52,558 bases of DNA from contig JANXNV010000233.1 of assembly GCA_025353925.1 (NCBI GenBank), forward strand, positions 1-52,558. The letters are read 5' to 3'. The notes beneath the pieces are model-generated. The model ran no database searches and had not been told where the DNA came from. It worked only from the letters and a program-made list of their open reading frames with translations. The position numbers were made by a program, and so were the translations under genes. This DNA is from Armatimonadota bacterium (lineage in GTDB: Bacteria > Armatimonadota > Armatimonadia > Armatimonadales > Capsulimonadaceae). Numbering within the stretch: position 1 is the stretch's first letter; the number at the start of each line of letters is the position of its first letter. Below, piece by piece: positions 5,108-5,648 of the stretch.

Positions 5108-5584
5108 CTACCCTAAACGGGCAGTGACTTCCTCCCAGCGCTCCGTATCGAAACGCACCTGCCAGGCGAATGCTTTGCCTTTGCGGTCGTAATAGACTGC
5201 CATCGCCGCTTTCGCCAGATGCCGGGTGTCGGTAGCCAGCAATTCGCTCGCCAGCACAGCGCAGCGCAGGTAGGCGACCGCGTGCCGACCGCTCATACGC
5301 CAGGCCTGGCCTTCGGCCCCCGACTTCTCCATCGCCGACCGGAGTGCTGCGGGAAGAACGGCAGCCGCCGTCCGTGCCGGGACGCGCGGCGTTTTGACCA
5401 CCGCCGGTTTGACGGCCACTGTCTTGACCGCCACAGGTTTGACCGCCGCCAGCTTGACCTTGGCAGCCACCGGAAGCGCGAGGACCGGCTTTTCGGTGCG
5501 TTTCGGGGCTGGCTTCAAGGCAGGCCTCAGCGGCGGGGGATCAAGCGCAAAAAGTGTGGGCTGGTCGATAGGCGTCTTTCTCAT
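5108..5584 (-). CDS. Lys/Ala/Pro-rich small protein with a beta-clamp-like motif, behind an SOS-like promoter
   Basis: 158 aa from the ATG at 5584, chosen because GAGG lies seven to ten bases upstream and because the longer ORF start (5632) falls inside the promoter. Residues 8-12 are QPTLF, matching the sliding-clamp-binding consensus (QxxLF). Residues about 35-75 are a disordered basic tract with near-repeats of KPVAVK/KTVAVK/KPAVVK. Residues about 95-158 look globular (MSGRHAVAYLRCAVL, YYDRKGKAFAWQVRFD). No known family was recognised. A LexA-like box sits between -35 and -10. A role in damage response or at the replication fork is inferred from promoter plus motif only. Confidence 0.7.
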   Translation of the reverse strand: MRKTPIDQPTLFALDPPPLRPALKPAPKRTEKPVLALPVAAKVKLAAVKPVAVKTVAVKPAVVKTPRVPARTAAAVLPAALRSAMEKSGAEGQAWRMSGRHAVAYLRCAVLASELLATDTRHLAKAAMAVYYDRKGKAFAWQVRFDTERWEEVTARLG

Positions 5585-5618
5585 GGGGTTCCTCGAGTTC
5601 GTCCGTGTGTTTTCCCTT

Positions 5619-5648
5619 AGTATAGCAAACAAATGTTCGCTGTGTCAA
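5619..5648 (-). promoter_or_regulatory. Sigma-70 promoter with internal LexA-like (SOS) box
   Basis: On the minus strand: TTGACA (5643-5648), 18-base spacer, TATACT (5619-5624). The spacer holds CGAACATTTGTTTG (5626-5639), one base from the Gram-positive type SOS consensus CGAACnnnnGTTCG. A repressor bound there would block RNA polymerase. Transcription would begin about 28 bases before the ATG at 5584. Confidence 0.72.

Follow-up and report, generated by a model that had tools for sequence, protein, structure and literature searches.

A small Armatimonadota protein family predicted to be under SOS control, with a candidate clamp-binding peptide in one lineage

A small basic protein encoded in the 52,558-nucleotide stretch of Armatimonadota DNA analyzed here (the window) is very probably a member of the LexA (SOS) regulon: promoter sequence and its conservation indicate that the gene is repressed by LexA bound within the core promoter and induced by DNA damage. 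The protein ends in a domain of about 70 residues that is undescribed, as judged by the libraries searched, and by alignment it is this domain, not the clamp-type motif near the N terminus, that is the conserved part of the protein. The explanation that we consider best, with a probability of roughly 50%, is an SOS accessory protein that may be brought to the DnaN sliding clamp by a lineage-specific peptide. Within the scope of the libraries searched, both the domain family and the way in which the elements are combined are new; the regulatory logic and the principle of a clamp-binding peptide are of known kinds.

The gene stands single, flanked on one side by a divergent aldo/keto-reductase-like gene and on the other by a GGDEF-EAL-type gene (features are collected in Table 1). 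Its product begins MRKTPIDQPTLFALDPPPLRP..., and the linker that follows the N-terminal segment contains three near-repeats (VKPVAVK, VKTVAVK, and VKPAVVK). A preliminary description of this DNA had reported a small basic protein with QPTLF at residues 8 to 12, a Lys/Ala/Pro tract with near-repeats, and a compact C-terminal part, all of which are present in the 158-residue translation.

Table 1. Positions of the gene, its promoter elements, and the parts of its product within the window, with the loci of the partner gene described in the text
Feature	Position	Strand	Basis or remark
LexA-type operator CGAACATTTGTTTG, perfect CGAACN4GTTYG	5626..5639	-	Promoter geometry and conservation
-35 element TTGACA	5643..5648	-	Sequence, composite promoter pattern
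-10 element TATACT	5619..5624	-	Sequence, composite promoter pattern; 18-base spacer contains the operator
Ribosome-binding site GAGGA	5590..5594	-	Sequence; 5 bases 5' of ATG
CDS, small basic protein behind the SOS promoter, 158 aa	5108..5584	-	Stop codon 5108-5110
N-terminal 20 residues (MRKT...QPTLFALDPPPL)	5525..5584	-	Mostly shared by both species of the genus
QPTLF, residues 8-12, candidate beta-clamp-binding motif	5549..5563	-	QPALF in G024, QTALIF in G021
Residues 21-88, basic K/A/P-rich low-complexity linker	5321..5524	-	Variable; G024 copy 42 residues shorter
Residues 89-158, conserved domain (W..., AY, A.Y....G+.FAWQ..F....W)	5111..5320	-	Alignments and AlphaFold
Partner gene, loci L037, L040, L046, L049, L132, L136	Genomes G023, G016, G010, G018, G019, G227		

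In both the window and its genome, the bare operator box is no more frequent than expected by chance. Because the box occurs at chance frequency genome-wide, its presence by itself was not counted as evidence; the argument for SOS control instead draws on the geometry of the promoter and the conservation of that geometry. The composite pattern TTGAC-N4-CRAAC-N4-GTTYG-N-TA-N3-T occurs seven times in the 291 genomes of the phylum, compared with zero times for a reversed control, and four of the seven occurrences precede all four members of the domain family found in the window's taxonomic family. An operator inside a 16- to 18-base spacer was seen in 16 promoters, namely, those of 15 family operons and that of a partner gene standing alone in G227 (see below). 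This layout is common to the family operons of four taxonomic families (f1, f2, f24, and f32), and in f33 it is found at the partner alone. A box matrix whose training set was limited to boxes in the vicinity of lexA, recA, recA-like, and Y-family/imuB genes reached at least 8 bits in 18 of the 20 upstream regions scanned (family operons, one divergent paralogue, and the partner alone), versus 6/186 other upstream regions, a control that leaves out the family's own promoters. The operator is kept before the orthologues, with the exceptions of G015, where no box occupies the promoter, and the two divergent copies, G211 and G221b.

The same type of box precedes other genes in the window's genome: recA (C142:8439), a recA paralogue (C235:11542), one copy of lexA (twice, C142:11036 and 11117), and an imuB-DUF6504-dnaE2 operon (C121:5806). 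It also agrees with the SOS box CGAACN4GTTCG published for Bacillus subtilis and Staphylococcus aureus (PMC9578287). As in the LexA regulons of those species, an operator of this family lies within the core promoter and is found at recA, lexA, and translesion synthesis genes of the same genome; unlike in those regulons, the gene regulated here belongs to a new family, and its membership is predicted from sequence. The earlier proposal that the protein is damage induced gains support from a LexA-type operator that sits in the core promoter, recurs at recA, lexA, and imuB within this genome, and is kept in four taxonomic families. The SOS response of Armatimonadota would thereby gain a conserved protein of unknown function. 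In the literature searched, a single paper brings Armatimonadetes, LexA, and SOS together, and each of the first two names appears in it once.

Three LexA-type proteins in the window's genome score above the curated cutoff (C121:54983, C259:9066, and C142:11223), and only the C142 copy has this type of box (two boxes) directly upstream of its gene. Elsewhere in this genome, at L141 (G000:C244:17653), a gene for a 134-residue protein (MRGSNRMAVGDLKKNAMMAHLLDALDHKKDIGHYG...) with no match in NCBIfam has a palindromic box, CAAACATATGTTTG, about 43 bases 5' of it and is possibly a further SOS gene.

A profile search with the C-terminal domain retrieved the family from 19 of the 291 Armatimonadota genomes, representing 16 of 156 genera. 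In alignments the conserved unit spans about 70 residues and comprises an N-terminal Trp, then AY, and then [AG].Y....G[KR].FAWQ..F....W..V...LG. AlphaFold models the domain with a mean pLDDT of 94.4 and a pTM of 0.79 and predicts a beta-beta-alpha-alpha-beta-beta-alpha topology. No credible family match for the protein was found in Pfam, NCBIfam, PHROG, or PADLOC, and a PDB sequence search gave no convincing relative. Foldseek searches with the domain model returned nothing significant (best E-values of 0.13 for the PDB and 0.07 for viral models), and searches of phages, plasmids, and viral contigs did not find family members. No solved structure resembles the domain, so any action assigned to it is conjectural: it might recruit a repair factor, bind DNA, or restrain the replicative polymerase, and we consider recruitment or DNA binding likelier than a complete arrest of replication. 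A divergent member of the family (G211:C131, L134) lies directly 3' of a Rad52_Rad22-like gene, whose Pfam match (E-value of 0.006) is under the gathering score.

The remainder of the protein is low in complexity, and residues 1 to 89 carry a net charge of about +13. Members from f24, f27, f28, and f32 have a low-complexity, mostly basic tail at the C terminus instead, the tail of G202 being an exception that is not basic, and the short members of the order (f2) have no tail. A tail that moves from one end to the other yet stays much the same in composition suggests contact with nucleic acid, and we regard DNA contact by the basic tail as fairly probable.

Further comparison concerned the N-terminal half of the protein, which is confined to the window's taxonomic family and is represented by four N-extended sequences in the searched set. 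Three of the four contain the clamp-type motif in some form: QPTLF in the window's genome (G000), QPALF in its sister species (G024), and QTALIF in a related genus (G021), the last being taken as a six-residue form of the motif only after the fact. The motif was not found in the fourth, G023, and it is missing from the 15 of 19 family genomes whose members have no N-terminal extension; the short relatives have just a few residues ahead of the domain. When the two species of the window's genus are compared, the stretch from Q8 to L19 differs at one residue, a change from T to A at the third motif position, where variation is tolerated. The Q, L, and F of the motif and the ALDPPPL that follows are identical in both, and the adjoining linker has lost 42 residues. 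In G021, QTALIF is followed by an A.[DE]PP tract that resembles that of the window's genus. Among 471 background proteins, 0.85% contain Q..LF or Q..L.F within the first 30 residues, and 0.64% contain Q..LF alone. The motif is thus uncommon in the background, yet one occurrence is not compelling by itself.

A recent review gives the pattern of natural clamp motifs as Q-phi-x-[L/M]-[F/L] or Q-phi-x-[L/M]-x-[F/L], with tolerance at position 2 (PMC11139829). QPTLF agrees with this rule at positions 1, 4, and 5, while position 2 is Pro or Thr in the forms found here rather than the preferred aliphatic residue, and we read it as a credible but imperfect clamp motif. In the DnaN protein of the window's genome, which has TDTHRL, FPNYERV, and VLMPM at its C terminus, most residues of the client pocket given in the same paper (PMC11139829) are retained, and the pocket is largely canonical. 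The ImuB (L142, G000:C121:4614-5783) and DinB (L143, G000:C121:58764-59963) proteins of this genome carry the clamp-type motifs TPDLF and TLPLF, respectively, in each of which the Gln is replaced, whereas DnaE1 retains a Gln in its motif, QVSMF.

The preliminary description had proposed that the protein works at, or blocks, the clamp, had suggested a check of whether QPTLF and the SOS-like box are conserved together, and had named the absence of the motif from homologues, or free variation of its region, as findings that would speak against its proposal. Most homologues do lack the motif, and the box accompanies the C-terminal domain instead. Motif-borne clamp binding therefore cannot be the shared function of the family. 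The part of the proposal that stands is narrower, with a motif kept across two species and a variant of it in a second genus: clamp binding is a plausible lineage-restricted addition rather than an ancestral function, a reading to which we give even odds, and the chance that the N terminus docks on DnaN in this genus seems to us equally balanced. Such an arrangement would offer a candidate example in which a damage-induced protein acquired a clamp-binding peptide. Binding of the peptide to DnaN, if real, would illustrate how the route to the clamp after DNA damage is rewired in individual lineages.

The absence of the motif from most of the 19 genomes, in which the domain and the SOS promoter are nevertheless kept together, is also what gives weight to a rival reading: an SOS-induced DNA-binding or repair accessory in which the domain and the basic tail do the work and QPTLF is due to chance or has a structural role. 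The retention of a low-complexity, mostly basic tail at one end or the other is consistent with such a role, as is the position of the divergent G211 relative next to the Rad52_Rad22-like gene, albeit one identified by a match below the Pfam cutoff. This reading does not readily account for the retention of Q, L, F, and ALDPPPL in an otherwise fast-changing N-terminal half, for the recurrence of a QxxLxF form with a similar A.[DE]PP tract in a second genus, or for the low background frequency of the motif (0.85% in the first 30 residues). We consider it a real possibility, held tentatively.

In the SOS accessory reading that we prefer, LexA bound inside the core promoter would repress the gene, and DNA damage would lift its expression. 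The product would be an accessory of the damage response that consists of a novel alpha/beta domain and a flexible basic tail, and the tail probably keeps the protein near DNA. In this and one related genus, the free N-terminal end would have gained a clamp-binding peptide (QPTLF, QPALF, or QTALIF). After damage, the peptide could insert into the hydrophobic DnaN pocket at stalled forks and hold the domain there by a flexible leash; the docked protein would occupy a client site and bring its domain to the replisome. A comparable placement is seen in Hda, whose clamp motif sits in a disordered N terminus (PMC11139829). The window protein is like Hda and other QLxLF clamp clients in having a short Q-x-x-L-(x)-F sequence in a flexible N terminus. 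It is unlike them in that the rest of the protein is, by the searches made, unrelated to polymerases or clients, in that the candidate motif is missing from most relatives, and in that its binding is a prediction.

A peptide that occupies the client site could also act as a brake that slows replication after damage by competing for the DnaN pocket with its clients, the replicative polymerase among them. The DnaE1 protein of the window's genome has QVSMF at residues 919 to 923, a position that we equate with the internal site of the E. coli motif, and the two proteins could therefore compete directly. A motif at a free N terminus, joined to the domain by a long flexible linker, would suit such a role, and SOS control would confine production of the protein to damage. 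Two small clamp-targeting toxins act at this DnaN pocket: SocB binds the hydrophobic cleft of the clamp via a usual clamp motif (PMC9690074), and suppressors of RipA map to the same pocket (PMC12795458). The window protein is likewise small and may act on the same pocket; unlike them, it has no antitoxin partner seen and no sequence match in the libraries searched. Indeed, no antitoxin-like neighbor was found in the window or in the sister genome, and most relatives have the domain and SOS control without the motif. A brake of this kind appears unlikely.

Another candidate role is that of a part of the ImuB-DnaE2 translesion mutasome, with the clamp tether supplied in trans. The SOS-boxed imuB-DUF6504-dnaE2 operon in the window's genome is in line with this role, and the motif of the small protein has the Gln that those of ImuB and DinB lack. 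Mycobacterial ImuB, a hub with the clamp motif QLPLWG, needs its own clamp motif for mutasome function (PMC10421592). The window protein is like this ImuB in being damage inducible and in having a clamp motif, both as predicted here; it is unlike ImuB in having no polymerase fold, and its gene is also present where ImuB or DnaE2 is lacking. In the sister species G024, QPALF is retained, but no orthologue of ImuB or DnaE2 was found, the matches being limited to DinB and the DnaE1 level. For G223 and G224, both of which carry the gene, matches likewise reach no further than the DnaE1 level, and no Y-family protein was matched in G223. In G023, G010, G016, and G018, the gene is present and neither an ImuB match nor DnaE2 was found, although the absence of DnaE2 is less sure for G010 and G018, where the replicative DnaE itself is missing or partial. 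The expected co-occurrence with imuB and dnaE2 thus fails, with no DnaE2-level match in G024, G023, G016, G018, G223, or G224, and a general mutasome role is disfavored on this test. Because G024 keeps the motif and has neither ImuB nor DnaE2, we regard a mutasome role as very unlikely. An SOS accessory carried to the clamp is favored over both a SocB- or RipA-type blocker and a mutasome subunit.

Inhibitors of cell division are common among small SOS-induced proteins that lack enzymatic motifs, and the window protein could on these grounds be a functional analogue of SulA or YneA. However, no membrane segment is apparent by eye, no likeness to named families was found in Pfam, NCBIfam, or PADLOC, and the clamp-type motif and basic tail suggest DNA rather than the septum as the site of action. 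Division inhibition thus seems highly improbable.

In five genomes (G010, G016, G018, G019, and G023), a second small gene lies directly upstream of the family gene, with the SOS box 5' of this partner; the partner is also found alone, with its own SOS box, in G227. The partner family has about 125 residues (TYEFRWDVEVP...GWQGVRVWMTFARQDVE..L.KK), no Pfam or NCBIfam match, and no detectable homology to the domain described above (hhalign probability of 0.4%). Its model (pLDDT of 86) is weakly RusA-like (E-value of 2.4e-3, TM of about 0.45), a resemblance below significance that we treat as a lead only. The WQGVRV shared by the ends of ImuB and the partner was considered as a sign of homology and dropped, as ImuB stops there and no longer alignment exists. 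In the window's order, 11 genomes carry the family; all five with the partner are without an intact ImuB-DnaE2 cassette, and five of the six without the partner have the cassette (hypergeometric chance of 6/462, calculated by hand and ignoring relatedness and genome incompleteness). One might read this pattern as an unrecognized, new-fold SOS effector family that sometimes takes a two-gene form as if replacing ImuB-DnaE2 and that, with a clamp tail in the window's lineage, regulates clamp traffic after damage; we offer this as a rather doubtful, speculative extension.

A last observation combines both elements considered here. In G250 (L158, G250:C246:8198 and downstream, positions 1540-2721 of the locus), a radical-SAM protein is encoded behind the same composite SOS promoter. 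It is akin to TIGR03916 (putative DNA modification/repair), at a score below the curated cutoff, and its sequence ends in QLELPFGEL, a six-residue clamp-type motif.
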